Below, piece after piece: positions 4,034 through 22,710 of a stretch of DNA of 64,000 nucleotides. The notes under the pieces were generated by a model. The model did no database searches. It was not told the DNA's origin and saw only the letters and a list, made by a program, of their open reading frames with translations. Origin of the DNA: Sulfurospirillum sp. 1612 (GTDB lineage: Bacteria > Campylobacterota > Campylobacteria > Campylobacterales > Sulfurospirillaceae); contig NZ_CP140614.1 of assembly GCF_036556685.1 (NCBI RefSeq), forward strand, positions 1,488,001 through 1,552,000, in the 5' to 3' direction. The stretch's first letter is position 1. Each line of letters opens with the position of its first letter. A program made the position numbers and the translations under genes.

Positions 4034-5478
4034 TTAGTCTCAAAAGTATTTCCAAATTCGTCTCAGCTGTCGGAATTATCATTTTTTTAGCCTTTTTGAT
4101 ACCTGTTTTTATCGGAATTTATTATCATGAGGATATCCAATCACATCTTTTTGCCATCTTGGCACTACTTTTTGCTAACGCACTTGTTTTTTGGTCACTT
4201 CGAGATTATAAATTTTCTCTGAGTATCAAAGAGAGTATCATCGCGGTCAATCTCATCTGGATCCTTCTAGGTATCGGAGGAGCCCTTCCTTTAATACTTC
4301 GTACGGGAATCGATTTTTCTAGTGGTTTTTTTGAGGCTATTAGTGGCTTTACTACCACGGGTGCTACGATCTATGGTCACATAGAATCGCTACCAAAGAG
4401 TATTTTATTTCATAGAAGTTTGATGCATTGGATTGGAGGGATGGGAATTATCGTCTTGGGTGTCGGACTCTTTCCACTCATCAATCCAAGTGGTTCGCTG
4501 AGTCTCTTCCGCGCAGAATCTACGGGTATTTCTATCGATAAAGTCACGCCTAAAATCAAAAATACCGCCAATAAATTGTGGGGGGTTTATTTTCTTATCA
4601 CCATTACCAATATTTTGTGTCTAAAATTTTTCGGCATGAATTGGTTTGATGCAATTAATCATGCCTTTTCTACAGTCTCAACTGGAGGATTCTCAACCAA
4701 AGATGATTCTTTTGCCTATTTCTCGAATGACGATGGTATCATCTGGACCACCATATTTTTTATGATTATATCGGGTATCAACTTTCTGGCACATATCAAA
4801 TTTTTAAGTGGCGATTATAAAAGTTACCGTTCTGAAGAGGTCAAATGGTATTTGATTATTCTCTTCATACTCTCACTCGCCCTCACCTTTTCACATTACA
4901 ATAGTAACTCTATGGCGCTGTATGATGTTTTTAAACACTCTGCTTTTACCATCACCTCTATCATGACCAGTACGGGTTTTGTATCTGTGGATTATTCGAC
5001 ATGGAGCCATTTTTCGATTGCTTTGGTCTTAATTGCTATGATAACCGGTGCAAATGCAGGGTCCACAGCAGGTGGTGCCAAAATTATCCGTTATATCATC
5101 TACTTTAAAAATATCTCCATCGAGATTAGACGCTCCCTTAAACCTGAATCAATCGCTTCAATATTTATTGATGATAAACCAATCAAAAACTCTGTCATTA
5201 GTGCAATTTTTGGGTTTTTCTCACTCTTTATCTTAACAATTTTTTCGGTCATGTTGTATCTGTATGCACGAGGATATGATGAGATGACCTCTATCAGTAC
5301 CGCGATGACTATTGTGGGAAATACGGGACCGGGATTTTCTCTCACAGGGCCTGTGAATAATTATGCTTTTTTCTCATGGTATGATAAGATTATCCTCTCT
5401 TTTGCTATGATTATTGGTAGGTTAGAATGTTATACTGTCTTCATATTACTGAGCAAATCATTTTGGAAAAGATTTTAG
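4030..5478 (+). CDS. trkH: Trk potassium uptake channel TrkH
   Basis: A 482-residue inner-membrane K+-translocating subunit, full length for TrkH. About ten hydrophobic segments and four pore-loop motifs are visible: TTTGA near residue 110, STGGF near 216, TSTGF near 317 and NTGPGF near 434. The Gly in each repeat lines the selectivity filter. The ATG overlaps the end of trkA, so the two form one operon. It stops one base before the TTG of the next gene, so the DUF234 gene is probably co-expressed. Confidence 0.96.
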   Translation: MISLKSISKFVSAVGIIIFLAFLIPVFIGIYYHEDIQSHLFAILALLFANALVFWSLRDYKFSLSIKESIIAVNLIWILLGIGGALPLILRTGIDFSSGFFEAISGFTTTGATIYGHIESLPKSILFHRSLMHWIGGMGIIVLGVGLFPLINPSGSLSLFRAESTGISIDKVTPKIKNTANKLWGVYFLITITNILCLKFFGMNWFDAINHAFSTVSTGGFSTKDDSFAYFSNDDGIIWTTIFFMIISGINFLAHIKFLSGDYKSYRSEEVKWYLIILFILSLALTFSHYNSNSMALYDVFKHSAFTITSIMTSTGFVSVDYSTWSHFSIALVLIAMITGANAGSTAGGAKIIRYIIYFKNISIEIRRSLKPESIASIFIDDKPIKNSVISAIFGFFSLFILTIFSVMLYLYARGYDEMTSISTAMTIVGNTGPGFSLTGPVNNYAFFSWYDKIILSFAMIIGRLECYTVFILLSKSFWKRF

Positions 5479-5479
5479 G

Positions 5480-6364
5480 TTGCGGCGCAAATTCAAGAAT
5501 TTTTATAAAAAATTTCCTTATCTTGATATTGATGAATGTATCACTTTTTATGCAATTTTTGAGGGATATCCACATTTGAACTCTTTAAATTTATCAAAAG
5601 GATTGCCGACACTGGTACAAGAGCATATCCTCGATCAAAAAGAAGCATTACAGCCCTATTTCCACTACACTGAAGATCATGATAAACAACGGTTACTTGA
5701 GAAGATTTTGATTCGTATCGCTAGAGGTGATCGCAAAAGCTATACCGTTTACAATAAAGAAAAACTCTCCCAAACCAAAGGGCGCATCCTCTATAAATAC
5801 CTCTTTGAAAACCATATCATTAAAAAAGAAAAGAGTAGAGAACTTCCCATCAAAACTTCAAAAAAGCAGTTGATAAAAAAAGATTTAAGACACTATCAGA
5901 TCCAAGATAAAATTCAATTTTCCAATAACTTTACCAGATTTTGGTTTACGTTTATTGCGAAAAATTTTGATAAAGAACAGATTAGCTACGACCAAGATAT
6001 TGAACCTTTTTTAGATAAGTATATTAGTTTGGAGTTTGAAAATCTTTCCAATACCCTCCTATGCCATATCTACAAAAAAGATGGTATCCTCTCTTCTGGG
6101 AGTTATTGGGATAAAAATCTTGAGATTGACCTCTTTATAAAAACACAAAAAGAGAATATTGCCGGTGAAGTCAAATGGAAAAACAGCAAAGTTTGCAAAA
6201 ATATCTTAAACGCATTGATACATAAATGTAAAAAATCTAATTTAGATGTCAATAAATTTGCACTCTTTTCAAAAAGTGGCTATTCAAAAGAGTTAGAAAC
6301 AAAAAAATATGCTAATATAGAGTTATATTATTTAGATGATTTCAAAAGGCTTTTGGATGATTGA
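5480..6364 (+). CDS. stand-alone DUF234-like protein (PD-(D/E)XK fold)
   Basis: A 294-residue soluble protein, probably starting at TTG 5480 one base after trkH. The N-terminal 150 residues are helical and winged-helix-like. The C-terminal half matches the DUF234 module normally found at the end of archaeal and bacterial DEXX-box ATPases: an NFTRFWF strand near residue 155, FENLS near 198, then EIDLF and GEVKWKN near 225-240. The Asp, Glu and Lys of the last two form a PD-(D/E)XK-like nuclease core. No P-loop is present, so the ATPase part of the usual architecture is missing. Function is unknown. It is translationally linked to trkH upstream and to the FlgS-like kinase downstream. Confidence 0.7.
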   Translation: MRRKFKNFYKKFPYLDIDECITFYAIFEGYPHLNSLNLSKGLPTLVQEHILDQKEALQPYFHYTEDHDKQRLLEKILIRIARGDRKSYTVYNKEKLSQTKGRILYKYLFENHIIKKEKSRELPIKTSKKQLIKKDLRHYQIQDKIQFSNNFTRFWFTFIAKNFDKEQISYDQDIEPFLDKYISLEFENLSNTLLCHIYKKDGILSSGSYWDKNLEIDLFIKTQKENIAGEVKWKNSKVCKNILNALIHKCKKSNLDVNKFALFSKSGYSKELETKKYANIELYYLDDFKRLLDD

Positions 6365-7385
6365 TGAAAATTTGTTGAATTCGCTGAACACAAAAGAAAA
6401 AGAACTTTTCAAAAAAGGGTTAAACGACCTAATAGAACAGACATATGTGATTGAAAATGAGTATAAAAAACTCAATGAGTCTTATGCTTCACTCCAAAAT
6501 TTCATTAAACAAATTATTGAAGTACAACCTAATGCGTTGTGGGTTTTAGATGAAAATGGTGAGATTTTTTTGCAAAATAGTGACGCAAAAAAACTAGAAC
6601 CTCTTCTTAGAAAAATTTTAGAACATAAAAACAAAAAAGAATTTAGCTATAAAGACGCCTACTATATTGTCAAAACGGTCACACAAACAGAGAAAACCAT
6701 CATCAGTGCCACAGATATTACAGAAGAAAAGAGACAAGAGCGTCTGATTTCCATGGGACAAGTGGCCGCACACCTCTCTCATGAAATTCGCAATCCAATC
6801 GGCTCTATTTCACTTTTGGCCTCGACCTTATTTAAGAAAGTAGACACTAAAACAAAACCATTGGTTTTAGAGATGCGAAAATCCATCTGGCGTGTCGAGC
6901 GCATCATCAAAGCCACCTTGCTCTTTACAAAGGGACTCAATGTCGATGCCCACTCTTTTTCGCTTTTAGCTCTCAAAGATGATTTAGAAGAATCTCTGGC
7001 TTATTATACCTATTCCAAAGATATCACATTTGATTTCCAACTCCCCGACACGCATATGATTGGGGATTTTGAGCTCTTATGTTTGGTCTTTCAAAATTTC
7101 ATCTTTAATGCGATTGATGCGATTGAAGAGGGAGAGAATGAAGAAGGCATGATTAGAATATCCTATCAAAAAGAGGCCGATTATACGATTTTTCATATTC
7201 AAGATAATGGCAAAGAAATTAAAAACAAAAACATTCTTTTTGAACCTTTTAAAACGACAAAAACCAAAGGAAATGGTCTAGGATTAGCACTATCATGGCA
7301 AATCATCAAAGCACACGGTGGGGATATTGCGCTAAAAGATAACCCAAAATCATTTGAAATCAAAATAGGAAACACCCTTGTTTAA
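6357..7385 (+). CDS. flgS: sensor histidine kinase, FlgS-like (flagellar sigma-54 pathway)
   Basis: A cytoplasmic NtrB-type kinase of about 342 residues. I prefer the ATG at 6357, which overlaps the preceding stop by eight bases; an in-frame ATG at 6336 would add seven residues. Order: a coiled coil, a PAS-like segment (about 55-120), a dimerisation helix with phospho-acceptor His in HLSHEIRNP (His142 from the 6357 start), an N box (FNAIDAI), a DNG box and a GNGLGL lid. There are no membrane segments. The sequence around the His closely matches what I recall of Campylobacter/Helicobacter FlgS, which phosphorylates FlgR to turn on sigma-54 flagellar genes. No flgR is nearby; in these bacteria it usually lies elsewhere. 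Confidence 0.8.
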   Translation: MIDENLLNSLNTKEKELFKKGLNDLIEQTYVIENEYKKLNESYASLQNFIKQIIEVQPNALWVLDENGEIFLQNSDAKKLEPLLRKILEHKNKKEFSYKDAYYIVKTVTQTEKTIISATDITEEKRQERLISMGQVAAHLSHEIRNPIGSISLLASTLFKKVDTKTKPLVLEMRKSIWRVERIIKATLLFTKGLNVDAHSFSLLALKDDLEESLAYYTYSKDITFDFQLPDTHMIGDFELLCLVFQNFIFNAIDAIEEGENEEGMIRISYQKEADYTIFHIQDNGKEIKNKNILFEPFKTTKTKGNGLGLALSWQIIKAHGGDIALKDNPKSFEIKIGNTLV

Positions 7386-8874
7386 AGAAAGTATCAAAAT
7401 ATTTTTAGGAGATCTTTCAAACTCAATCAGAGATTTACTGCCCATCATCGTCGTCATATCATTTTTTCAAATTGTCATTATCTCAGAGATGCCAAAACAT
7501 CTCTCTTCAATCCTCTTAGGACTTTGTATTATCGCTTTTGGATTGGCTGTTTTTATTAGAGGCTTAGAGATTGGGATTTTCCCCGTTGGTGAGAATCTTG
7601 CCAATGATTTTGCCAAAAAAGGTTCATTGATATGGCTTTTGGTTTTTGCCTTTTTTATAGGATTTTCCACGACTATCGCAGAACCGGCACTGATTGCTAT
7701 TGCAGACAAGGCCACTATCATCAGCCAAGGAAGGATTGATGCCTTTTCATTGAGACTGACCGTTGCTATCGCGGTAGGAATGGCTATTTCAATCGGTGTG
7801 CTGAGAATATTACTAGGCCATCCTGTGCAATATTATATCATTGCCGGTTACATAATTGTCGTGGTTATCACCTTTTTTGCTCCAGCACAAATCATCGGTT
7901 TGGCTTACGATAGTGGTGGAGTCACTACATCCACAGTCACGGTCCCTCTCGTCGCAGCGTTAGGAATCGGTTTGGCATCTAGCATCAAAGGGAGAAACCC
8001 TGCGATTGATGGCTTCGGTTTAATCGCCTTTGCCTCATTGACCCCCATGATATTTGTACAATTATATGGTATCATCGTGTATGATTTTTTTGATCCACCA
8101 CCGACATCAACATTGGTCATCAAAACCGTGACGAGTGTAGCAAAAGGAGCAGAATTTGACATTATTACATTGATGTTGGATTTTTTAAATGTCGCAAAAG
8201 ATATACTGCCTATCTTATTGGTCATAGTTTTTTTTCAATACCTCATCATTAAAAAGCCAATTTTACATATTCCAAAAGTTGCGACAGGTGTTTTTATGGT
8301 CGTTGTGGGGTTGTATGCTTTTATCGTCGGATTGGAATTGGGCTTATTCCCAATAGGTGGAGAATTGGCCGCTTCTTTGACACGGATGCAAAATGTTTGG
8401 TATATTTATCTTTTTGGTTTTGCCATAGGATTTTCTACTACAATGGCAGAACCTGCATTGATTGCTATTGCATTTAAAGCCAATGAAATCAGCCAAGGAA
8501 ACATCAATCAAATGGTACTCAGAATCTCCGTAGCCATAGGTGTAGCTGTCGGTATTGCACTAGGAGCATATCGTATTGTGCAAGGCGATCCCATTTATTA
8601 TTACATCATTACAGGTTATATCTTTGTCATCATTTTGACCTATTTTGCACCCAAATATATCATACCAATAGCTTATGATAGTGGCGGCGTCACCACCTCT
8701 ACTGTCACCGTACCGCTCGTAGCTGCTTTAGGATTAGGTTTAGCACACAACATACCTGGCAGAAGTGTGTTGATAGATGGATTTGGATTAATCGCATTTG
8801 CATCTTTGTTTCCTATGATCACCGTCATGGGATATGGCATACTTGTTACAGAAATTTCAAAGAGGAGAAATTAA
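7378..8874 (+). CDS. DUF1538 membrane protein with internal duplication (putative transporter)
   Basis: A 498-residue polytopic membrane protein starting at TTG 7378, overlapping the kinase stop. It is an internal duplication. Each half (about 1-245 and 265-498) has the order LPI..V.FFQ, then GFSTT.AEPALIAIA, then YDSGGVTTSTVTVPLVAALG, then a DGFGLIAFAS segment. These motifs are nearly identical between halves, which points to an inverted- or parallel-repeat transporter or channel with paired re-entrant or substrate sites. The family (DUF1538) has no established substrate as far as I know. The next gene encodes a PII-like protein and the next a CBS protein, as often seen for this family, suggesting nucleotide-controlled transport. 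Confidence 0.85.
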   Translation: MFKESIKIFLGDLSNSIRDLLPIIVVISFFQIVIISEMPKHLSSILLGLCIIAFGLAVFIRGLEIGIFPVGENLANDFAKKGSLIWLLVFAFFIGFSTTIAEPALIAIADKATIISQGRIDAFSLRLTVAIAVGMAISIGVLRILLGHPVQYYIIAGYIIVVVITFFAPAQIIGLAYDSGGVTTSTVTVPLVAALGIGLASSIKGRNPAIDGFGLIAFASLTPMIFVQLYGIIVYDFFDPPPTSTLVIKTVTSVAKGAEFDIITLMLDFLNVAKDILPILLVIVFFQYLIIKKPILHIPKVATGVFMVVVGLYAFIVGLELGLFPIGGELAASLTRMQNVWYIYLFGFAIGFSTTMAEPALIAIAFKANEISQGNINQMVLRISVAIGVAVGIALGAYRIVQGDPIYYYIITGYIFVIILTYFAPKYIIPIAYDSGGVTTSTVTVPLVAALGLGLAHNIPGRSVLIDGFGLIAFASLFPMITVMGYGILVTEISKRRN

Positions 8875-8877
8875 AAT

Positions 8878-9234
8878 ATGCAATTTATTGTTTTAGCCGC
8901 AATCGTTCCCGATGCGCAAGAAGAAAATGTCATGAAAATAGCCAAAGAGGCTGGAGCCGGAAGTGCTACGATTTTACATGGCAAAACGATTGGATTAAAA
9001 GAAAAAAAGGTCTTTTTTGGTTTGACATTGGAAGAAAATGTTTCCATTCTTCTCTTTATCTTGCCCAAAAGAATTTCAGTCATCACGTTCAAAAAGCTCA
9101 AAGAAGAACTCAAATCAGGCGAAGAAGAAGATGCTCAAAATGGTATGGTTTTTACATTTCCATTGACACACTTATCGGGTTTGGATATAGATGAGTTAGA
9201 CTTCTTTGAAGAAGAAATTAAAAATGAATTATAA
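8878..9234 (+). CDS. PII-like signalling protein linked to DUF1538
   Basis: A 118-residue PII-superfamily protein. It has a ferredoxin-like N-terminal strand (FIVLAAIVP), the Gly-Ser-Ala-Thr-Ile-Leu-His-Gly-Lys segment that in classical GlnB/GlnK precedes the T-loop, and a C-terminal GMVFTFPLTHLSGL. The classical T-loop with the uridylylated Tyr is not evident, so this is a divergent PII, probably sensing an adenine nucleotide and docking on the DUF1538 protein. It starts three bases after the DUF1538 stop with GGAG close upstream, so the two are made together. It is unlikely to be the cell's nitrogen PII because no ntr or amt gene is nearby. Confidence 0.8.
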   Translation: MQFIVLAAIVPDAQEENVMKIAKEAGAGSATILHGKTIGLKEKKVFFGLTLEENVSILLFILPKRISVITFKKLKEELKSGEEEDAQNGMVFTFPLTHLSGLDIDELDFFEEEIKNEL

Positions 9235-9244
9235 AGGATAACCG

Positions 9245-9631
9245 ATGTTAGTACGCGATATCATGAAAAAAGAGAGATTAGCAATCGTCTCTCCAATGGC
9301 TCCGGTAAGAGATGCCCTCAAGCAAATGAAAGAGAGAAAAGTAAAGTCATTAATCGTTGACAAACTCCGCCCTAGTGATGCTTATGGATTACTCACGTAT
9401 AAAAATATTATGTTTTCGATTTTAGCCAGCGATGGAGATATCGATTTGTTGCGCGTGTATGATATATGCTCCAAACCAGCCTATCAAGTCTCTGAAGAGT
9501 TAAATGTCAAATATGCCGTACAATTAATGGTCAGAGGAAATGTCAAACGACTGCTCGTCATTGATAATAATGAAATCGAAGGCATCTTAACGATGACAGA
9601 CATTATGGAAACGTATTTAAAAGATATCTAG
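9245..9631 (+). CDS. CBS-domain pair protein
   Basis: A 128-residue protein made almost entirely of two CBS domains (about 7-60 and 70-128). Signature features are VRDIMKK at the start, DAYGLLTYKNI, and the closing GILTMTDIMETYL. CBS pairs bind AMP, ATP or S-adenosylmethionine and regulate partner proteins. It lies ten bases after the PII-like gene with AAAGGA upstream, so it is the third member of the DUF1538 cassette. Its stop codon forms the base of a hairpin shared with the converging dnaE. Confidence 0.85.
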   Translation: MLVRDIMKKERLAIVSPMAPVRDALKQMKERKVKSLIVDKLRPSDAYGLLTYKNIMFSILASDGDIDLLRVYDICSKPAYQVSEELNVKYAVQLMVRGNVKRLLVIDNNEIEGILTMTDIMETYLKDI

Positions 9632-9657
9632 CAAGGGAGCACTTAGGCTACCCCTGC
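9631..9657. terminator. hairpin shared by CBS gene and dnaE
   Basis: An imperfect stem: GCA, GGG and AGC at 9631-9640 pair with GCT, CCC and TGC at 9647-9657, with loop ACTTAG. The dnaE stop codon (9643-9645) lies in the loop and the CBS stop at the 5' base. It is a plausible two-way terminator for converging genes, though no long T-tract follows. Confidence 0.5.
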
Positions 9658-12600
9658 GAGATTGATTTCTTTTAATTTTTCATCTATATCATCGGATACT
9701 TTAAAGTAGGTATCAAAGACGACATCTTGTAGTTTTGAGGAAAATACCAATTTCAGCGGTCGATTTCCAGGATTTTCTCTCACCAGTCGGTATAAATCTT
9801 CTAAGATTTCTGCATTTTTTTGAAACTCGATAAAGAGTGTCTTTGGCTCTGCTTCGACCTCAATCGCTTTAGTTTCAGTTTTCTCTTTTTTGGCTTCTTT
9901 TAAATTTAAAATCTTCAAAACACGCTTATTGACACCCCGTTCATCTCTTGAAATCGCCACTTTAAGACAAATAGGCTCTTCTTTATCCATCTTATCAATT
10001 TTTTCCAGAAATTTTGAAAACAGTGTCACTTCAATATTGCCATGGAAATCCATGAGATTTAAAATAGCAAATTTATTGCCTTTTTTACTTATTTTTTCAG
10101 TAATCTCTTCGACCTTCCCAATAAAAAGAGCCGTACTTCCATCGCCTAAGTTTTCAATATCACTTGACAAGGTATAAGGGACTGCATTAATTTCCTCTTT
10201 GAACGCATCAAGCGGGTGTCCTGAGACATAAAATCCCATCGTCTCTTTTTCAAATTCTAAGACTTTTTTCATATCAAATTCTGGTACATTCTGAATATCA
10301 ATATGCAAAGAAACCAATTCTTGGTCATCTCCAAAGAGAGAATTTTCAGCCATTTTTTTCGCTCGGGCACATTCACCGGCAGTTTCAACGATTTTTTCGA
10401 TATTATCTAACAGCGCCCGTCTGGTATAGCCAAAATCATCTAAACTACCAGATTTTATCAAGGATTCAATGACCCTCTTATTGACTTTAGAGGTATCGAT
10501 TTTTGACAAGAAATCATCCAAACTGTGAAAGTTTTCTGCTTCTCTTGCTTCTAATATCTTGGTTATGGCTGAACTTCCCATACCTTTGACAGCACCCAAT
10601 CCAAATAAAATCGTCTCATCGCCTTCGTCATCTTTTATCGCCGTAAATTCAATCAAACTCTTACTCACGCTCGGAGGAGAGAGTTTGATACCAAGTCTTT
10701 TGACTTCATCAATATACTTGACGATTTTTTCTGTATTATCTTGCTCACTGGTTAAAAGTGCCGCCATGAATTCTTGCGGATAATAGTATTTTAAATAAGC
10801 CGTTTGAAATGTAATCATCGCATAAGCGGCAGAGTGGGATTTATTAAAACCATAACCAGCAAATTTTTCAATCAATTCAAACAGTTCAATCGCATGATTA
10901 TAGTCATATCCCTGTTTTACGGCACCATCAGCAAATTCAGCCTTATATTTTTTCATGACATCGATTTTCTTTTTACCCATGGCACGTCGCACAATATCTG
11001 ATTTTCCTAGACTAAATCCCCCAATTGCTTGAACGATTTGCATGACTTGTTCTTGATAAACAATGACACCATAGGTCGTCTCTAAGATAGGTTTTAATGC
11101 CTCGGTAAACTCATCATAAAAGTAATCAATCTCTTTTATGCCATGCTTTCTGTCAATAAAGTCATTTAACATACCCGATTCCATCGGACCAGGACGATAC
11201 AATGCCAACACCGCCACAATATCTTCAAAGGTAGTCGGTTTTAAACGTTCATTTAGAGATTGCATCCCTCCTGATTCAATTTGAAACAATCCAATAGTGT
11301 GTCCACTTTGGATAAATTTGTAAATATTTTGGTCATTGACATCTACTTTGTTAAAATCAATATCTTTGCCATATCGTGATTTTATCAACTTCAGTGCATT
11401 ATCGATGACGGTCAGGGTTTTGAGTCCCAAAAAGTCAAATTTAATTAAATCCACATCTTCAAGATAGTTTAGAGAATATTGTGTGACCAATTGCTGGTCT
11501 TCTCCCGCAGGCTTGTAAAGTGGTGTTTTATGCCACAGTTCTTCATCACTAATCACCACGCCCGCAGCATGCATTCCGGAGTTACGGTTCAAACCTTCCA
11601 ATGCCAAAGCAAATTTCCAAACTCTTGCAATTTCAGGATCTTCTTCAATCCATTGTCTTAATTTTTCTTCTTTTTGATAGGCTCCTGGTTTAAAACCTTC
11701 TTCTCCCTCTACCCCTTTACCATTGAGGGTAATATGCAGCTCATCGGGTACCATTTTGGCCATTTTATCTGCTTTGGCATAAGGCACACCTAAGACTCTC
11801 GCAACATCACGAATCACTCCTTTGGCGAGTAATTTTCCAAATGTAATGACTTGTGCCACATTGTATCTACCATATTTTTGCACCACATAATCAATAATCT
11901 CTCCCCGCCTACTTTGGCAAAAGTCAATATCGATATCGGGCATACTTACCCGTTCAGGATTCAAAAATCTCTCAAACAGTAGGTTGTATTTCATCGGATC
12001 AATATCCGTAATAAAAAGAGAAAAGGCCACCAAACTTCCAGCCGCACTACCCCTGCCCGGACCCACAGGGACACCACGTTTTTTGGCCTCTCGTATAAAA
12101 TCCCAAACGATGAGCATATAGCCGGGAAATTTCATGCTACAGATAATATCCATCTCTCTATCGAGACGTTTTCGATACTCATCATGAAGCGAAGGATCCA
12201 CGAGTTTTAACCTCTCCTTGAGACCGATTTCACATTGATATCTAAAATACTCATCATCATTATCATAATCCAAACCTTCACTTTTGGCATACTCTTTGGT
12301 AAATTTGAATTTAGGAGGAGTTGGGTCACCTAGTTTAATCTCCAAATTGCATTTTTCTACAATCTCTTGTGTGTTTTCAATCGCATCAGGGATATCTGCA
12401 TACAGACGCATCATCTCCTCAGGAGACTTGAGATAAAATTCATGTACAGAGTGGCGCAATCTGTTAGGGTCATCAAACTCTTTATTCATGGCAATACACA
12501 TAAACGCTTCATGAGCTTCTGCATTCTCTTCTTTTAAGTAATGCGTATCATTGGTCGCAATGATTTTAATCCCCGTTTCTTGCGAAAGACGGATGGTGCT

Positions 12601-13182
12601 ATCATCGATAAATTGTTGATCACCAATACCATGGCGCATCAACTCAAGATAAAAATCCTCGCCAAAAATATCTTTGTATTCAAGTGCTGCTGCTTTTGCA
12701 CCCTCATAGCCTTTGGCGCCAAATTGCACATTTCTTGGATTTTGTGTATTCAGATGCCAGTTGACTTCTCCTTGCAAACAAGCACTAGAACAAATCAAAC
12801 CCTCGCTGTGTTCACGAAGCATTTTTTTGTTGATTCGTGGATAATAATAAAATCCATGAATAAAACTTTGAGAAGAAAGATACATGAGGTTTTTATAACC
12901 GATTTCATTTTTAGCCAATAAACACAAATGAAACCGTTGTTTGGTTGTTTTATCATCAATCTCTTCTTGATTATGAATGTAGGCTTCCATCCCAATGATT
13001 GGCTTAATCCCAACACTGCGCATCGTTTTGTAAAAATCTATAGCACCAAACATATTGCCATGGTCTGTAATCGCCACAGATTCTACGCCTTGTTCTTTGA
13101 GTAATGATGCTAATTTTCCTATTTTATTGGCTCCATCTAGGAGTGAATATTCAGTATGTAAGTGTAAGTGTGTAAATTTCAT
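9643..13182 (-). CDS. dnaE: DNA polymerase III alpha subunit
   Basis: The 1179-residue replicative polymerase, full length for DnaE1. An N-terminal PHP domain begins FTHLHLHTEYSLLDG. The polymerase core has GPGRGSAAGS and the catalytic acidic motif PDIDIDF near residue 410. It is followed by RPGPMESG, a helix-hairpin-helix region (KSHSAAYA, LFGLGAVKGMG) and an OB fold near residue 1010 (FIGKVEEI). It acts in the replisome with the beta clamp. It starts at ATG 13182. The gene appears intact with no frameshift. Confidence 0.97.
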   Translation of the reverse strand: MKFTHLHLHTEYSLLDGANKIGKLASLLKEQGVESVAITDHGNMFGAIDFYKTMRSVGIKPIIGMEAYIHNQEEIDDKTTKQRFHLCLLAKNEIGYKNLMYLSSQSFIHGFYYYPRINKKMLREHSEGLICSSACLQGEVNWHLNTQNPRNVQFGAKGYEGAKAAALEYKDIFGEDFYLELMRHGIGDQQFIDDSTIRLSQETGIKIIATNDTHYLKEENAEAHEAFMCIAMNKEFDDPNRLRHSVHEFYLKSPEEMMRLYADIPDAIENTQEIVEKCNLEIKLGDPTPPKFKFTKEYAKSEGLDYDNDDEYFRYQCEIGLKERLKLVDPSLHDEYRKRLDREMDIICSMKFPGYMLIVWDFIREAKKRGVPVGPGRGSAAGSLVAFSLFITDIDPMKYNLLFERFLNPERVSMPDIDIDFCQSRRGEIIDYVVQKYGRYNVAQVITFGKLLAKGVIRDVARVLGVPYAKADKMAKMVPDELHITLNGKGVEGEEGFKPGAYQKEEKLRQWIEEDPEIARVWKFALALEGLNRNSGMHAAGVVISDEELWHKTPLYKPAGEDQQLVTQYSLNYLEDVDLIKFDFLGLKTLTVIDNALKLIKSRYGKDIDFNKVDVNDQNIYKFIQSGHTIGLFQIESGGMQSLNERLKPTTFEDIVAVLALYRPGPMESGMLNDFIDRKHGIKEIDYFYDEFTEALKPILETTYGVIVYQEQVMQIVQAIGGFSLGKSDIVRRAMGKKKIDVMKKYKAEFADGAVKQGYDYNHAIELFELIEKFAGYGFNKSHSAAYAMITFQTAYLKYYYPQEFMAALLTSEQDNTEKIVKYIDEVKRLGIKLSPPSVSKSLIEFTAIKDDEGDETILFGLGAVKGMGSSAITKILEAREAENFHSLDDFLSKIDTSKVNKRVIESLIKSGSLDDFGYTRRALLDNIEKIVETAGECARAKKMAENSLFGDDQELVSLHIDIQNVPEFDMKKVLEFEKETMGFYVSGHPLDAFKEEINAVPYTLSSDIENLGDGSTALFIGKVEEITEKISKKGNKFAILNLMDFHGNIEVTLFSKFLEKIDKMDKEEPICLKVAISRDERGVNKRVLKILNLKEAKKEKTETKAIEVEAEPKTLFIEFQKNAEILEDLYRLVRENPGNRPLKLVFSSKLQDVVFDTYFKVSDDIDEKLKEINLAGVA

Positions 13183-13258
13183 AATGGTTATTTCTTTCTA
13201 TTTATTTTTTATTCATTCTACAAAAAAAGCTCTTAAAAAACATCGTGTTGGTGTCATG

Positions 13259-14467
13259 TTAGACGATATTTTTACCGGCACAATATCCACTAGCCCAAGC
13301 CCAATGAAGATTAAAGCCACCACAATCTCCATCAATATCCAAAACCTCTCCTGTGAAAAAAAGTCCTTTTTTCAGTTTGGATTCCATACTTTGAGAGTGG
13401 ATTTCATCCGTATTAATCCCTCCAGCTGTAACTTCAGCACTCTTGAAACCTCGTGTTCCTGTGATAGTAAGCTGTAGATTTTTAAAGGCATAAACCAAGG
13501 AGACGATATCTTTGGTATTGAGATGATCTGCATTTTTTACAGAAAAATCTCGTGCTATGAATTTCGCTAATTTTGAATTAATAAACCCATCCAACCACAA
13601 GGCTAAACTTTTATGATGGGAATATTTTTTCCGTTTTTGTAACATATTTTTCAATTGTTCTTTGGAATACTCCGGCACTAAATCAATCTTGGCCTTGACT
13701 TTTTTTTGATGTTCAAGCGCCCATGATGCATGACGACTCACATCTAAAATAGCAGAGCCTGAAATACCATAATTGGTAAATAAAATATCATCATGTTTAC
13801 GCATCACACTGCGTCCATCAACCAAAATTTCAATCAACCCTTCGATTTTAACACCATTGATACTCGCTAAATCTTCTTTGGTTTCCAATTGCACCAACGA
13901 AGCGTAAGGTTTGATGATACTGTGCCCAAATGCTTGGGCAAATTTGTAGCCACTATCACAACTCCCTAGTGTGGGCATGGCCAAACCACCAGTAGCGATT
14001 AATACCTTGGTGGCCTTGTCTTGTCCCTCTTGGTGTGAAATAATAAATCGATCATGATCGGCTTGAATCTGTGTCACTTCGCACGGGAACATAAATCTCA
14101 CTCCCAGACGTTCACACTCATAACGCAACAATTCTACAACACTAGAAGATTGATGACTTTTAGGATATAATCGGCCATTGTTGCCTTCAAACATTTCAAT
14201 GCCCAATTCTTTAAAAAATGCAATACAAGCAGCCGTATTAAACCGATTGATCGCAGGATTGACAAAACTAGCATGTGTGCCATGATAGTTTGATGTTGCA
14301 ATATTTTTATTGGTGATGTTGCATCGACCATTACCGGTGGCGAGGATTTTCTTTCCAATTTTAGAGTTTTTCTCATAAACTCGTACCTTAGCACCGCTTC
14401 TTGCCGCTGTGATAGCTGCGACCATGCCAGAAGCTCCCGCGCCGATAATTGCTATTTGTTCAGGCAA
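13259..14467 (-). CDS. BaiN/HI0933-family NAD(P)/FAD flavoprotein
   Basis: A 402-residue flavoprotein of the HI0933 (YhiN/BaiN) family. The N-terminal FAD-binding site reads IIGAGASGMVAA, followed by an acidic residue ending the second strand (VYEKN). The family GNGRCN motif is near residue 47. A second dinucleotide motif follows near residue 155 (IATGG), and the C-terminal FTGEVLDIDGDCGGFN closes the FAD site. BaiN from gut clostridia reduces bile-acid intermediates, but most members have unknown substrates and no such pathway is nearby. Its start overlaps the end of the S1-domain gene, so they are co-translated. Confidence 0.88.
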   Translation of the reverse strand: MPEQIAIIGAGASGMVAAITAARSGAKVRVYEKNSKIGKKILATGNGRCNITNKNIATSNYHGTHASFVNPAINRFNTAACIAFFKELGIEMFEGNNGRLYPKSHQSSSVVELLRYECERLGVRFMFPCEVTQIQADHDRFIISHQEGQDKATKVLIATGGLAMPTLGSCDSGYKFAQAFGHSIIKPYASLVQLETKEDLASINGVKIEGLIEILVDGRSVMRKHDDILFTNYGISGSAILDVSRHASWALEHQKKVKAKIDLVPEYSKEQLKNMLQKRKKYSHHKSLALWLDGFINSKLAKFIARDFSVKNADHLNTKDIVSLVYAFKNLQLTITGTRGFKSAEVTAGGINTDEIHSQSMESKLKKGLFFTGEVLDIDGDCGGFNLHWAWASGYCAGKNIV

Positions 14468-16418: not shown

Positions 16419-16444
16419 ACATTCTCCTCTAATTTTATGCTCTT

Positions 16445-16450
16445 ATTATA
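16445..16450 (-). promoter_or_regulatory. efp promoter -10 box
   Basis: TATAAT on the minus strand, about 27 bases before the efp ATG, in a very AT-rich stretch. Confidence 0.5.
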
Positions 16451-16585
16451 TCAAAAATAAGTTAAATTAGTCCAAAAAGTGCACAATAATAAAAATAGTA
16501 TTATAATTTTTATCTATAATAGATCAATAAGATAAATCCTATCTTATTTTAGGATATAATAAATAAAAAGCAACAAGGAAATGAC

Positions 16586-16747
16586 ATGTTCAAGAATAAA
16601 GAATATTTAAATATCTACTTAGTGACAGGCATTTTGACACTGTTTGTGATCTTTAGCGTCATTACGCTCTATTTTATACAAAAAGATATTACCAACAATA
16701 CCAGTGCTACTTTGTTAGAAAAAAAGTTAAAAAAACTTAAAAAATAA
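16586..16747 (+). CDS. small single-pass membrane protein (53 aa)
   Basis: An unlisted small gene. It has a TATAAT box at 16555-16560, AAGGAA seven bases before the ATG, and a 53-codon frame ending TAA. The product has a short polar N-terminus, one hydrophobic segment (about 11-31, rich in Leu, Ile, Val and Phe) and a Lys-rich tail. This is the topology of a small membrane protein with a cytoplasmic basic end. No family is recognised. Promoter, ribosome site and membrane segment together make it more credible than a random frame. Confidence 0.6.
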   Translation: MFKNKEYLNIYLVTGILTLFVIFSVITLYFIQKDITNNTSATLLEKKLKKLKK

Positions 16748-16994
16748 CACTTAAAAACAGATCACACACTCCTCTTTAATACCCTACTTCCACCCCTGCA
16801 ATCGATTACAAGAATTTTAAACTAAATACTTCTCTTTTTATACGTTTTAACGTATAAAATATATATTTATATTCTACATATATATAAATAAACGTATTTA
16901 ATATGAGATTATTAGTATATTTTATAATTTTTAATGTACTTTTTATAATATTTTGGTATAATATATACATAATAAAACAAGCAAAAGGATGCTC
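16748..16994. other. AT-rich intergenic region with palindrome and TATAAT
   Basis: About 247 bases with no gene. It carries the palindrome at 16837-16858, a related half-site AACGTATTTA at 16891-16900, and a TATAAT box at 16957-16962 ahead of the small gene at 16995. Confidence 0.6.
16837..16858. promoter_or_regulatory. perfect 10-bp inverted repeat, operator-like
   Basis: TTTATACGTT and AACGTATAAA, separated by TT, form a perfect inverted repeat. A near copy of one arm (AACGTATTTA) sits 33 bases on. It could be the binding site of a dimeric repressor controlling the following small gene, or a terminator for the preceding one. No T-tract follows, so an operator is preferred. Confidence 0.45.
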
Positions 16995-17144
16995 ATGATT
17001 AATTTGACACTAAGAGAAAAAGAGGATTTAAAAGAAGTTTATGATTGTTTGGTCATGAAAAGTGAGATTGAGTTATCCTGTGAAAATGTGTATCAAAATA
17101 TTTTAAATGTAGTCAAGAAAATAAGAAGTATAATAAAAATATAG
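16995..17144 (+). CDS. small acidic/basic helical protein (49 aa)
   Basis: A 49-codon frame starting at ATG 16995 with AAAGGA seven bases upstream and TATAAT at 16957. The product is predicted helical, with alternating Glu/Lys and two Cys (positions 18 and 29) but no CxxC motif and no membrane segment. Its stop (TAG) is the first base region of the strong hairpin at 17141-17167. No family is recognised. The promoter, ribosome site and terminator support a real gene. Confidence 0.55.
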   Translation: MINLTLREKEDLKEVYDCLVMKSEIELSCENVYQNILNVVKKIRSIIKI

Positions 17145-17167
17145 AGATGGCATCATGCCATCTCTAT
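17141..17167. terminator. 12-bp perfect hairpin terminator
   Basis: A 12-bp perfect stem (17141-17152 with 17156-17167) and loop TCA, between the small gene and the 3' end of the RND operon. On the minus strand it is followed by a U-rich stretch (TATTTTTATT), so it can end the efflux operon. Confidence 0.7.
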
Positions 17168-17176
17168 CATGATAGA

Positions 17177-18850
17177 TTAAGACGGATTGTTGTCTTTAAT
17201 CGCTTTGGTGTTGTCCATCAGTACGGGCACTACGACAAGCGATACGATTACCGCAACAATCGTACCAAATATCAATGCAACACCCAAACCACCAAAAATC
17301 GGATCTTTTGCTAGTAGTGTACTGGCTAAGATAATCGCAGCAGCCGTTAAGAAGATTGGTTTTGCTCGTGTTGCTGTTGCCGATGCTATGGCTTTACGTT
17401 TTGGCATACCTTTTTCAATCAAACCAATCGCAAAATCAATCAACAATAATGAGTTTCTCGAACTAATTCCCATCAGAGCAATAAATCCTATCAGAGAAGT
17501 CGCGGTCAAGAAGAAGGTATCGGTCGTAAAAAGATCCATAATCCAATGTCCCACAATCACCCCGATAATCGATAAGAAACTTCCCAAAAGGATAATCCCA
17601 CTCAGCGCAAAACTCTTATAATAAATCACCATCAACAAAAAGATTAAAATCAGCGCCGCGATAAAAGCTCCACCAAGGTCTCTAAATGTGTCCATAGTGA
17701 CTTTCATTTCGCCATCCCAATTGAGGTCAAACACTTCACCGCTTTTTTTATCTTTCAATTGTAAATTAAAAAGATGTGTACTGGTAACATCGTAGTTTTT
17801 GCTAAAAAATTCTTTCATTTTACTTCGAGCCTCAAGCAGTGGATAGACTTGAGAGACCAAATCTGTCTCTGCGATAACATTCACCATCTTGCGAAGGTTT
17901 TTGGACATAATCGTTGGATTTGAATTCACTTCCACCGGCGTTACCAACTCATTGACAGGAATCATCATCCCTTGCTTATTCATCAGTTTGAGTGAGGATA
18001 ATTTGTCTTCTAAAGCTTTTTTAGACAATTGATTGAGTTCTTTGGTTTTCTTGCTCAGCACGACGTACAATGGAATTTGCTCTGGTGAATTTTCACTATT
18101 TTTCACTGCAATACTCATACCCTCAAAAGAGAGATACAAGATTTCATTGAGTTGTTTGATACTCAAACCTGAGCGAATGACTTTTTCTTTATCCACGCGT
18201 AATTCATATTTTTTGTATATCGTATCTTGCATCACATCAACATCTACAAGATCTTTGGTATGTTTTAAGATATCAGCCACTTGATTGGCGAGCACTCTGA
18301 GTTGTGCACTATCGTTGCCATACAGCTCTACCACAATCGATGCTAAGGTTGGAGGACCCGCAGGTTGCTCTATCATCTTGATGGTGGTTCCCTTGACAAG
18401 ATTGCTACAACTTTTATCTATCACCGGACGCAAACGATGTACCATCATAAAAGATTTTTCATCTCTGTCATTTTTGTTCGTCAAATTGACAACAATTTCT
18501 GCAGTATTTTCCGTCATTTTAAACGATGAACCTTTGACCAGTCCGGCATAATCAAGTGGAGAACCCGTACCCAGATAGGTCTCTATATTGACGATTTCTT
18601 TCTCTTTTTTTAGAATATTATTAATGCATTGGGTCACGCTTTTTGTTTGGGTAATAGAACTACCCGTCGGTGTATCTACATAAATAGAATACGTATTAGC
18701 ACTTTTACCCGGGAGCATCTTCGCTAATACCACTTTTGTAGGAAACATCATGATAGAACCAATAAAGGCTAACAATGTCACCAATAAGACAAGAAGCTTC
18801 TTGGATCTGGAATTAATAATGGAATAAATAATCGTCTCAATGATTCTCAT
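17177..18850 (-). CDS. RND efflux pump, C-terminal half encoded separately
   Basis: A 557-residue protein matching only the second half of an RND (AcrB-type) inner-membrane pump. One membrane segment near residue 20-40 (equivalent to TM7) is followed by a large periplasmic domain (about 45-385) and five C-terminal membrane segments (about 388-550, TM8-12). The TM10 position that is Lys940 in AcrB reads Arg here (ISSRNSLLLIDFA). The ATG at 18850 lies inside the last codons of the preceding half-gene, 14 bases of overlap in another frame, with its own GAGGAG about nine bases upstream. Both halves keep full domains, so I infer a two-piece pump assembled from half-subunits rather than a broken gene. 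A sequencing or natural frameshift cannot be excluded. Confidence 0.82.
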   Translation of the reverse strand: MRIIETIIYSIINSRSKKLLVLLVTLLAFIGSIMMFPTKVVLAKMLPGKSANTYSIYVDTPTGSSITQTKSVTQCINNILKKEKEIVNIETYLGTGSPLDYAGLVKGSSFKMTENTAEIVVNLTNKNDRDEKSFMMVHRLRPVIDKSCSNLVKGTTIKMIEQPAGPPTLASIVVELYGNDSAQLRVLANQVADILKHTKDLVDVDVMQDTIYKKYELRVDKEKVIRSGLSIKQLNEILYLSFEGMSIAVKNSENSPEQIPLYVVLSKKTKELNQLSKKALEDKLSSLKLMNKQGMMIPVNELVTPVEVNSNPTIMSKNLRKMVNVIAETDLVSQVYPLLEARSKMKEFFSKNYDVTSTHLFNLQLKDKKSGEVFDLNWDGEMKVTMDTFRDLGGAFIAALILIFLLMVIYYKSFALSGIILLGSFLSIIGVIVGHWIMDLFTTDTFFLTATSLIGFIALMGISSRNSLLLIDFAIGLIEKGMPKRKAIASATATRAKPIFLTAAAIILASTLLAKDPIFGGLGVALIFGTIVAVIVSLVVVPVLMDNTKAIKDNNPS

Positions 18851-20474
18851 GGTTTAACTCCTCAGCTTCTATTTTATCTTTTTGAAAATGCCGTTTATGG
18901 TGATGTTGTGGCGGTTTTTTTAGTAACTTCTTGGATAAGTAAGGAGTGAAAATATAGGCAATAATCAAAGAAGCAAACAGCGCCACCGGTACATTTTGAG
19001 GGATTGGTTTCATAAATTGTCCCATCATCTGTCCCACAAATGCCATCGGTACCATAGTCAAAATAATCGCCAATGTTGCCACGTTGGTCGGGGCACCAAT
19101 CTCATCGGTTGCCTCAATGAGTATTTCATCCATATCTTTGTCTACACTATCATGAGAGTGAAGATGGCGATGGATATTTTCTATCACGATAATCGCCGCA
19201 TCGACCAAAAGTCCCAAACTCAACAAAAAGGCAAACAGTGTAATTCTATTAATCGTTTGTCCTGTCATATAAGCCACAAATATCGTCACGGCCAAAATAG
19301 CCGGTACGGTAAACGTCACAATCACCGACTCTTTCCAACCCAATACAAAAACCAAAAGCATGGCAATAATCACAATCGAAATCAAAAGATGGAAAACCAA
19401 TTCATTCACCGCTTCATTGGCACGCTCTCCATAATTTCTCGTAATTTTATAAGAGATTCCCTCTTTTGCTAATTCACTTTTCATCTCATGGAGCTTGTCA
19501 ATAATACTATCAGCAATCACCACAGCATTGGTCCCTTTTAGTTTTGATAAGGTCAAAGTGATTTGATTTTTACTTTTTACAAATTTGCCATCTTTTTTAT
19601 ATAAGATTTCTGCACTTTTGAAATTTTGAATGTTATATCCATTTTCTACGTGTGCCACATCTTTGAGATAGATAGGTGAGCCCATGTATTGTGCAATGAT
19701 GAGATTTTGTACATCTTTGATGCTCTCAATCGCATTTTTGACACCAAATATCGCAAGCTTACCATCTTTGGTACGGTCTTTGATATCAGGCACATCCACC
19801 GCGAGTGATTTTAAAGCTTGGACAATCTGTCCCATAGAGAGATGAAATCCTGATAATTTATTTAAATCTACTTGGATGTTAAATTGTTGCTTTTTTTCGC
19901 CAATCAATGTCGTTTTTGCCACATCTTTGATTTCGTTTAATTCATTTTGAATGGCTTTGACTTTCTTATACAATTGGACATTGGACACATTAGCACCGTC
20001 TTTTGCATAAAAGGCAACGGTGACAATTGGAATATCAATATCGATATCAAAAGGCTTCACAATCGGCTGCATGGTATCTTTTGGAAGTTGATCCATGTTT
20101 TGCATCACTTTATCATAAAGCTTTAGATTGGAAGATTCCCTATTTTCTCCGATATAATACATGACATTGACAATCCCAACATTGGGTGCTGCAATCCCAT
20201 AAATATACTCTACCCCTTTGATTTCTTTGATTTTTCGCTCCAACGGCTTGACGATGATATTATCAATCTGTTTTGGAGTGGCACCGGGTAGTACTACCAT
20301 GACAGCGCCCCCGCTTATTTCAATTTGAGGATCCTCTTCTCTTGGGGTGATTTCCAAAGCCAAATACCCAACAAGAAGGAGAAATACTCCCAGCAACGGC
20401 GTCAGTGGATTGTGCAAAAATGCTTTGGCTAGCTTTCCTGCAATATCCGTAACCTTATAATTATTATTTTCCAT
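18837..20474 (-). CDS. RND efflux pump, N-terminal half encoded separately
   Basis: A 545-residue protein matching the first half of an RND pump: TM1 (about 22-40), a periplasmic porter/docking domain (about 45-355), and TM2-6 (about 365-515). It ends with a His/Lys-rich cytoplasmic tail (PPQHHHKRH...) where a normal pump of about 1030 residues would continue into TM7. In TM4, the proton-relay Asp pair of AcrB (Asp407-Asp408) reads Asp-Ala here (GLLVDAAIIVIEN), so only one acid is present. It starts nine bases after the membrane-fusion gene. Substrate is unknown; the subfamily resembles multidrug/HAE or organic-solute pumps rather than heavy-metal pumps. Confidence 0.85.
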   Translation of the reverse strand: MENNNYKVTDIAGKLAKAFLHNPLTPLLGVFLLLVGYLALEITPREEDPQIEISGGAVMVVLPGATPKQIDNIIVKPLERKIKEIKGVEYIYGIAAPNVGIVNVMYYIGENRESSNLKLYDKVMQNMDQLPKDTMQPIVKPFDIDIDIPIVTVAFYAKDGANVSNVQLYKKVKAIQNELNEIKDVAKTTLIGEKKQQFNIQVDLNKLSGFHLSMGQIVQALKSLAVDVPDIKDRTKDGKLAIFGVKNAIESIKDVQNLIIAQYMGSPIYLKDVAHVENGYNIQNFKSAEILYKKDGKFVKSKNQITLTLSKLKGTNAVVIADSIIDKLHEMKSELAKEGISYKITRNYGERANEAVNELVFHLLISIVIIAMLLVFVLGWKESVIVTFTVPAILAVTIFVAYMTGQTINRITLFAFLLSLGLLVDAAIIVIENIHRHLHSHDSVDKDMDEILIEATDEIGAPTNVATLAIILTMVPMAFVGQMMGQFMKPIPQNVPVALFASLIIAYIFTPYLSKKLLKKPPQHHHKRHFQKDKIEAEELNHENH

Positions 20475-20483
20475 GTCTTTGCC

Positions 20484-21284
20484 CTATTTGAGATTTACGA
20501 CAGCATACATACCAGGAAATACAGCTTTCCCTTTTTTATTAAATGTCACTTTTAATTTAAAGGTATGTGTGAGCGGATTCGAACTGGGTATGATAGAAGA
20601 GATTTTACCCACGCCCTTTAATCCGACAGAAGGGACTTCAATATCCACACTGTCTCCAATTTTGACATCTTTCAAGTTGTTTTCAGAAATTTCAGTAGAG
20701 ATTTTAAGATCCGTCAAATCAGAGAGGATAATTGCGGGCATCCCTGGCATAGCCATCTCGCCCACTTTGATATTTTTACCCACAACCACGCCGTCATTTG
20801 GGGCTTTGATATCCAAATATTTATATTGGTTTAAAACTTCTTGTAACTTCGCTTGGGCTTGTTTGATTTGTTCTTTTGAAATTTTTACCATATTGCTCAA
20901 ATTCTTTTGTGCTAATTCTAGGTTTTCTACATCAAATTTTGACACCATATCTTTTTTCAACAAGCGTCGGTTTCGCTCCAAATTCAATCGTACATTTTCA
21001 TATTGATTCTCATACATTTGAGAAGCAAGTTTTGCTTGAGAGATCACAAGTTCCACTTGTGCTTTCGCACTGTCAATTTCACGCGTATCTATTTTGTATA
21101 ATAGATCGCCTTTTTTGACGTTTTTGCCCTCAGAAACAAATACATCAGTCACAAACCCCATATATCTGCTCGTAATCATTTTTTGGTTATCAGAGATGAC
21201 ACTCCCACTCAAACTCAAATCTGCTGCAGCCAACGGCCATGACCATGCTAATAATATCCCCATATATATTATTAATTTTTTCAT
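20484..21284 (-). CDS. periplasmic membrane-fusion protein (HlyD/AcrA family)
   Basis: A 266-residue adaptor with a cleavable signal peptide (MKKLIIYMGILLAWSWPLAAA). A barrel-sandwich strand follows (about 25-65, VFVSEGKNVKKGDLLYKID), then a helical coiled hairpin (about 70-155) to contact TolC, then the second lipoyl half (KAPNDGVVVGKNIKVGEMA) and a beta-barrel. It is shorter than AcrA (about 397), and a clear membrane-proximal domain is lacking. It is not a lipoprotein. The ATG overlaps the tolC-like stop by four bases, so adaptor and outer-membrane channel are co-translated. Confidence 0.9.
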   Translation of the reverse strand: MKKLIIYMGILLAWSWPLAAADLSLSGSVISDNQKMITSRYMGFVTDVFVSEGKNVKKGDLLYKIDTREIDSAKAQVELVISQAKLASQMYENQYENVRLNLERNRRLLKKDMVSKFDVENLELAQKNLSNMVKISKEQIKQAQAKLQEVLNQYKYLDIKAPNDGVVVGKNIKVGEMAMPGMPAIILSDLTDLKISTEISENNLKDVKIGDSVDIEVPSVGLKGVGKISSIIPSSNPLTHTFKLKVTFNKKGKAVFPGMYAVVNLK

Positions 21285-22687
21285 ATTCCTACTCCATTTG
21301 CAATTTTCTCTAATTCTAATACTTTATAAATCTTCTTGTTCTCAACCTCTTTGAGCTTTAATACTTTTTCTATCTCTAAAGATTGTTTGATAATCACATC
21401 ATTAATCGATACCAATTTTTCTTGATAACGTCCGAGATAATTTTGGTATATCACTCGTGAAAGTTCTAACTCTTTGTTTAAACTATCAATCGAGAAGTCA
21501 AAATTTTCTATTTCTGTCTTGATTTTATCCACCTGTAACATAATGCCTTTTTTTGCTAACTCTACCTGAGTTTTTGTTTTGAGGTTTTGAACACGTGCTT
21601 TTTCAATACTGTTTTTATCAATACCACCATTAAAAAGATTCCATTTAAATTGTACCCCAAAGGTATAAGCATCATGCTTGCTAAAATCATTCAAAAACTT
21701 ATCATCCGCACTCGAATACTCCGCAAAGGCTCCGATTTCAGGAAGATTTGATGCTTGTTGCAATCGAATATTCATATCTGTAATTTTTAAACCCAATAGT
21801 GCTTTTTGAATATCTAAGTTGGAGCGGACAATCTCTTTCGCATCAATGTGACGCGGCGCAATATCTTGATAATTTCCTTGGACAGATTTGACATCAGCAT
21901 TGAGTAGAAAAGATAAAAATTGATAGGTCAGCGCTTTATTGGCTTTGGCTTGATGTAGCATTCGTAATACATTGGCTTTTTTCGCCTGTACTTCCAATAA
22001 ATCCACTTTTTTAGCATACCCCTCTTCTATCATATTACTCGCCATATTTTCTAATCGTTCCATATTGGCTTTGACGATATTTAGATTCTTGATATAGGTG
22101 TTGAGCAAGTAAATGTCAAAATAACTTTTTTTGACTTGATAGATTTTTTCATTCGTAATTTTTTGAGTATCTAAACCTGACATCTTGGTGAGTGCATCAG
22201 TGATTTTTCCATATTGTTCTAACTTCCCACCGGTATAAATAGGCAGTTCATATTTGAGTTTGGTTTGAAAAAAACTTCGAGCATCGGGATAGTTTAAGTC
22301 ATTAGGTTGAATACTCAATATACTACTCATATCAGAAGGAGGATTTCCTTGTGAAGCATTATAAATAGCTGTTCCCATAGGTGTTAAAAACTCGCTGAAA
22401 CCAAAATCTGCAAAAGTTGCTTCTCGTGAAGCTAATTTATACCCAAATACATTTCCGGCATCATTAGAGCGCATAGCATATTGTATTAAGTCTAATTTTC
22501 CGTAATTATAGCCCGTAGCGATTTGATGTTCAAAACTTTTGATTTTTTCGTCAAATCTTGCGATGTTAATCTCTAAATTATCCTTTTTTACCATTTCGAT
22601 TGCATCACTCAAAGCTAAATTTTGATACGTTATATTTTGAGCGAAAACAGGAAGAAACGAAAAGATAAAAAGTAGCAATATCCTCAT
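21281..22687 (-). CDS. TolC-family outer-membrane efflux protein
   Basis: An outer-membrane factor of about 468 residues. I place the start at ATG 22687 (MRILLLFIFSFLPVFAQ), which gives a normal signal peptide and has GGAG six bases upstream; the two ATGs at 22702 and 22699 lie before that ribosome site. Two repeats of the TolC fold are visible, with long coiled helices (IEKARVQNLKTKTQVEL near 370). It forms the exit duct for the RND pump encoded downstream. An 11-bp inverted repeat lies 24 bases upstream of the start and may control the operon. Confidence 0.9.
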   Translation of the reverse strand: MRILLLFIFSFLPVFAQNITYQNLALSDAIEMVKKDNLEINIARFDEKIKSFEHQIATGYNYGKLDLIQYAMRSNDAGNVFGYKLASREATFADFGFSEFLTPMGTAIYNASQGNPPSDMSSILSIQPNDLNYPDARSFFQTKLKYELPIYTGGKLEQYGKITDALTKMSGLDTQKITNEKIYQVKKSYFDIYLLNTYIKNLNIVKANMERLENMASNMIEEGYAKKVDLLEVQAKKANVLRMLHQAKANKALTYQFLSFLLNADVKSVQGNYQDIAPRHIDAKEIVRSNLDIQKALLGLKITDMNIRLQQASNLPEIGAFAEYSSADDKFLNDFSKHDAYTFGVQFKWNLFNGGIDKNSIEKARVQNLKTKTQVELAKKGIMLQVDKIKTEIENFDFSIDSLNKELELSRVIYQNYLGRYQEKLVSINDVIIKQSLEIEKVLKLKEVENKKIYKVLELEKIANGVGI

Positions 22688-22710
22688 AACTTTCTCCATC
22701 ATATAATGTT

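Follow-up and report, generated by a model that had tools for sequence, protein, structure and literature searches.

How is a permease of the RND family to be understood when it is encoded not by one gene but by two half-genes, and is such an arrangement a damaged gene or a working design? Textbooks present RND permeases as single chains that arose by gene duplication. The question is raised by a locus of Sulfurospirillum sp. 1612 lying within a 64,000-nucleotide stretch of DNA that was analysed as a whole (hereafter, the window), for which an original prediction had proposed that the two halves may form a true heteromeric pump.

Two genes together encode one RND permease

Four tightly packed genes lie on the minus strand of the window, in the order TolC-type channel, adaptor, N-half permease and C-half permease. 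The N-half gene (18837..20474, 545 aa) encodes TM1-6 and the first large periplasmic loop, and the C-half gene (17177..18850, 557 aa) encodes TM7-12 and the second, in agreement with the extents originally predicted. The two genes overlap in different frames by the 14 bp proposed (18837..18850), running from the C-half ATG to the end of the N-half TGA, and the C-half has its own GAGGAG Shine-Dalgarno sequence (18858..18863) within the N-half coding sequence, 7 nt 5' of the ATG.

The Pfam model ACR_tran (PF00873) matched the N-half over profile positions 5-504 (5.4e-78) and the C-half over positions 526-1016 of 1021 (1.2e-39), both scores clearing the 28-bit cutoff by a wide margin. Given this coverage, the two ORFs are, as judged from their sequences, one complete permease without only the TM6/TM7 linker, which is where the break had been placed, and which is cytoplasmic and poorly conserved in full-length relatives. 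In place of one chain of about 1,030 residues there are two ORFs with a conserved stop and restart; a single chain is usual, but not essential, for the fold. Structure predictions for the isolated halves, of moderate confidence (pLDDT 74.5 and 78.4), gave each a repeat of six TM helices, in which a large periplasmic loop follows TM1 in the N-half and TM7 in the C-half. The N-half model aligned to residues 1-501 of AcrB-type chains (Z about 26), and the C-half model to residues 521/524 to about 1035 (Z about 22-23). The rmsd of these alignments was large, at about 5-11 A, as is expected because the domains of isolated halves can swing.

The split permease sits in a tripartite efflux operon

The genes that would complete a tripartite efflux system lie directly beside the permease. 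A periplasmic adaptor (membrane fusion protein; 20484..21284, minus strand, 266 aa; HlyD_D23 9e-29, RND_mfp above cutoff) ends 9 bp before the N-half, and overlaps by 4 bp the gene for a TolC-family outer-membrane channel (21281..22702, minus strand, 473 aa; OEP 3e-26). Directly 3' of the C-half stop is an intrinsic-terminator-like hairpin of 12 pairs followed by a U-rich tail (17141..17167, minus strand; a pattern match only), which is probably the end of the operon. The 758 bp between the C-half and efp (16419-17176) contain short ORFs only, with no clear gene. The adaptor is immediately upstream in 39 of the 51 split loci that were read in detail. At three loci (L116, L118 and L120), a TolC-like gene is directly upstream of the split pump, with no adaptor detectable in the usual position, and at another (L059) regulators lie alongside the pump and the adaptor is absent beside it.

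This operon bears on what the pump does. None of the NCBIfam equivalog models reached its cutoff for either half, each being missed by far, and hence no substrate can be assigned from the family models; the histidine-rich N-half tails in 18/51 split pairs could in turn hint at metals. Both would be compatible with the pump having another task in the envelope, rather than being a proton-driven drug or metal exporter. Against this stand the TolC and adaptor genes of the operon, the conservation of the proton relay residues, and the closest solved relatives being MexK, AcrD and similar exporters. Such an alternative function is therefore unlikely, although it retains some weight.

The proton relay residues are divided between the two chains

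In AcrB, the proton relay is formed by D407/D408 in TM4, K940 in TM10, and R971 and T978 in TM11, exactly at the interface of repeats R1 and R2, and the engagement and disengagement of these repeats during the cycle has been proposed to drive transport (PMC4359379). Sequence alignment places the equivalent positions of the window pump on both chains: Asp425 of the N-half (TM4, AcrB D407; codon 19200..19202, minus strand, computed from the start at 20474), and, in the C-half, Arg465 (TM10, at the position of AcrB K940; codon 17456..17458, minus strand), Arg495 (TM11, AcrB R971; codon 17366..17368, minus strand) and Thr502 (TM11, AcrB T978; codon 17345..17347, minus strand). All four residues are invariant in 51/51 split pairs. 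The charged relay between TM4 and TM10/TM11 is thus retained, though the second TM4 aspartate, AcrB D408, is alanine in the window pump and in 42 of the 51 pairs. Together with the arginine at the K940 position, this means that the relay is not identical to that of AcrB, from which it may differ in detail.

Alternatively, the halves might act separately, as homomers with different roles, or one might be a decaying remnant. Half-size RND-like proteins are conceivable, as each half contains one full repeat. However, three observations make this very improbable. Firstly, the relay requires residues from both chains, such that neither half could form it alone. Secondly, the two genes are always adjacent, at 51/51 loci and at 79 of 80 further named loci. 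Thirdly, the halves are equally conserved, with mean identities of 60% for the N-half and 58% for the C-half. Their distance sets also correlate, with an r of 0.94, though a high value is to be expected from their linkage alone. A heteromeric pump, as originally suggested, is consequently strongly favoured, because the residues that must meet are invariant and sit on opposite chains; on this view, the two chains would form a physical complex.

The junction has the anatomy of translational coupling

Junctions were read in 122 distinct loci. The C-half start fell between -14 and +1 bp of the N-half stop in 116 of these, most commonly at -4 (44 loci), -1 (33) or 0 (19). A Shine-Dalgarno core preceded the C-half start at 105/122 loci, and in the undeduplicated set at 110/130, whereas the frequency was 8% at control positions and 7% at internal ATGs. 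Relative to the N-half, the C-half frame was +2 in 79 distinct loci and +1 in 21, with both halves in one frame in the other 22. Such an arrangement is classically that of translationally coupled genes. Hence, of the internal ribosome site initially described, the dedicated Shine-Dalgarno sequence stands, while the C-half gene is better termed an ordinary translationally coupled second cistron.

The halves might still be joined into one protein for part of the time, by stop readthrough or by programmed ribosomal frameshifting, as the genes overlap in most species. Such a mechanism would have a constant relative frame across species, yet all three frames occur, and therefore no single programmed shift or readthrough would fuse all loci. 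The N-half tails after TM6 are additionally variable in both sequence and length, spanning 6-61 aa, and each C-half is provided with a start and Shine-Dalgarno sequence of its own. Programmed frameshifting was accordingly rejected, leaving only a slight chance for part-time fusion of the halves. The N-half tail is histidine-rich both in the window (18837-18930) and in those 18 of 51 relatives, with HHHKHHFQKD as an example, and histidines are also present in the linker of full-length relatives. It is possible that the tail binds metal in the cytoplasm.

The split arose once and has been conserved

The survey of the split was conducted within the phylum. In the genus of the window, a C-half frame of 552-563 aa was present in 10/10 genomes, and in the family, half-length frames were found in 39 of 41 matched genomes (one, G026, being cut by a contig end), with full-length frames in two. 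A phylum-wide sample of 298 genomes yielded 96 with a match, of which 89 had half-length frames of 551-676 aa, at 47-100% identity. Only eight full-length frames were seen (1126-1181 aa, 40-44% identity), one sharing its genome with a split copy. All of the 51 split loci, from about 15 families, were split when read in detail; 79 of the 80 further named loci, from Sulfurospirillum, Sulfurovum, Nitratifractor and others, were adjacent split pairs, the remaining one being an odd draft locus, and no fused pump was found among them.

In a tree of 70 permeases, all 51 split pairs fell on one side of a single branch (SH-aLRT 100), requiring one change of state. Full-length homologues from the same order fell outside the split clade, as did those from other phyla, three of which are annotated and full length, while a fourth, unannotated, is an open reading frame 1,112 codons long. 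The split is therefore the derived state; it arose once, and has been kept in many Campylobacterales.

Hence the split is a real design, and the notion that sequencing error or a recent frameshift broke one normal gene, although the window's geometry is that of a single-base change of frame and such artefacts are common in drafts, can be dismissed, as the genome is one closed contig, the same break recurs across dozens of genera in one clade at all split loci examined (47-86% identity, all with separate C-half starts and Shine-Dalgarno sequences) with a geometry that varies by species, and RefSeq annotates two intact CDS in the plasmids of Sulfurovum mangrovi (NZ_CP087125) and Sulfuricurvum kujiense (NC_014754).

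Apparent replacement and possible transfer of the operon

In much of the split clade, serA and efp flank the operon. In one genome of the family (G010; L134, about 4900-13400), a full-length pump occupies the position between these genes, and in another (G042; L135, 1-6550), a full-length pump precedes efp, with the contig ending upstream; a genome of the same genus as the latter (G043) has a split pump at that site. Re-fusion of a split gene was considered for these two genomes, but both of their pumps belong to the full-length clade, so replacement fits better. This looks like the in-place replacement of the split pump operon by another pump. The common serA/efp site suggests that the split and full-length forms do similar work, in interchangeable roles.

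The split pump of one genome of the window's genus (L093, in G003) groups with a different family (f18; L102, L149 and L150), rather than with its genus-mates. This suggests that the operon was transferred horizontally, though the serA/efp neighbourhood has been kept. Two split pumps from different subclades were also found together in single genomes (L109/L110 in G058, and L142/L143 in G205). Where two copies coexist in this way, the halves of different split pumps could in principle mix.

A model for the two-chain pump

The preferred reading of these observations is that the locus very probably encodes an obligate two-chain, proton-driven permease, whose halves pair into AcrB-like protomers, presumably with three N-halves and three C-halves per pump, and which works with the adaptor and TolC. 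The tolC, adaptor, N-half and C-half genes would be carried on a single transcript. Translation of the C-half would be initiated either by the ribosome finishing the N-half, or by a fresh ribosome recruited to the GAGGAG in the 3' end of the N-half, and from this anatomy the halves would be produced side by side, in a matched ratio. Each half would insert separately into the membrane with its two termini cytoplasmic, and the topology would be unchanged because the break sits in the TM6/TM7 linker, which is itself cytoplasmic. Repeat R1, on the N-half, and repeat R2, on the C-half, would then pair to make one AcrB-like protomer, in which the proton relay would be formed where Asp425 of the N-half meets Arg465, Arg495 and Thr502 of the C-half. 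The complete pump would consist of three such pairs, or six chains.

An extension of this model is that such obligate six-chain permeases represent an order-wide class, in which half-subunits can be swapped between different pumps where a genome has two split copies, thereby changing specificity, and in which R1 and R2 are tuned or regulated separately. We regard this as quite unlikely.

The arrangement has wider significance in any case. Having the two repeats on separate chains, kept through the whole order, provides a ready system in which to measure the binding of one repeat to the other. It also allows one repeat to be labelled or mutated at a time, and asks why a linker thought to be important is dispensable. 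For genomics, the consequence is that Campylobacterales pump counts are inflated, because automatic annotation lists the halves as two 'permease subunits'.

Comparison with known systems

The window pump resembles the HAE/HME-type permeases (AcrB, AcrD, MexK and CusA; PF00873) in sequence, in having both repeats, in its relay positions, and in its operon with TolC and adaptor genes. However, those permeases are one chain of about 1,030-1,090 aa, whereas the window pump is two genes and two chains. AcrB itself is said to have been expressed experimentally as two halves. Outside the split clade, the nearest relatives are full-length RND permeases from the order itself (L126 and L134, for instance; 35-44% identity), and each of these is likewise a single ORF, about 1,070-1,240 aa long, in which the linker is continuous. 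The Are pumps of A. butzleri have been described as having a single inner-membrane gene apiece (PMC8300790).

In MdtBC and MuxBC, an RND permease is similarly assembled from two different gene products, but MdtB and MdtC are full-length duplicates that form B2C trimers (PMC7015380). The window genes are not of this type, because they match different halves of the ACR_tran profile, each encoding one repeat, or half a protomer.

A description of a split HAE/HME-type pump was not found in searches of the open-access literature. Within the RND superfamily, SecD and SecF are two proteins in certain bacteria but one fused protein in others (PMC4139356, PMC8277102). They resemble the window pump in dividing TM1-6 and TM7-12 between two chains while relatives have the fused form, but differ in that the window pump sits with TolC and adaptor genes. 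The family scans rejected the window genes being SecD and SecF themselves, as they matched ACR_tran only, the SecDF model being weak (23.9 bits for the N-half, against a cutoff of 723). The precedent for a split within the superfamily is SecD/SecF, and the split HAE/HME-type permease of the Campylobacterales appears to be a new form.
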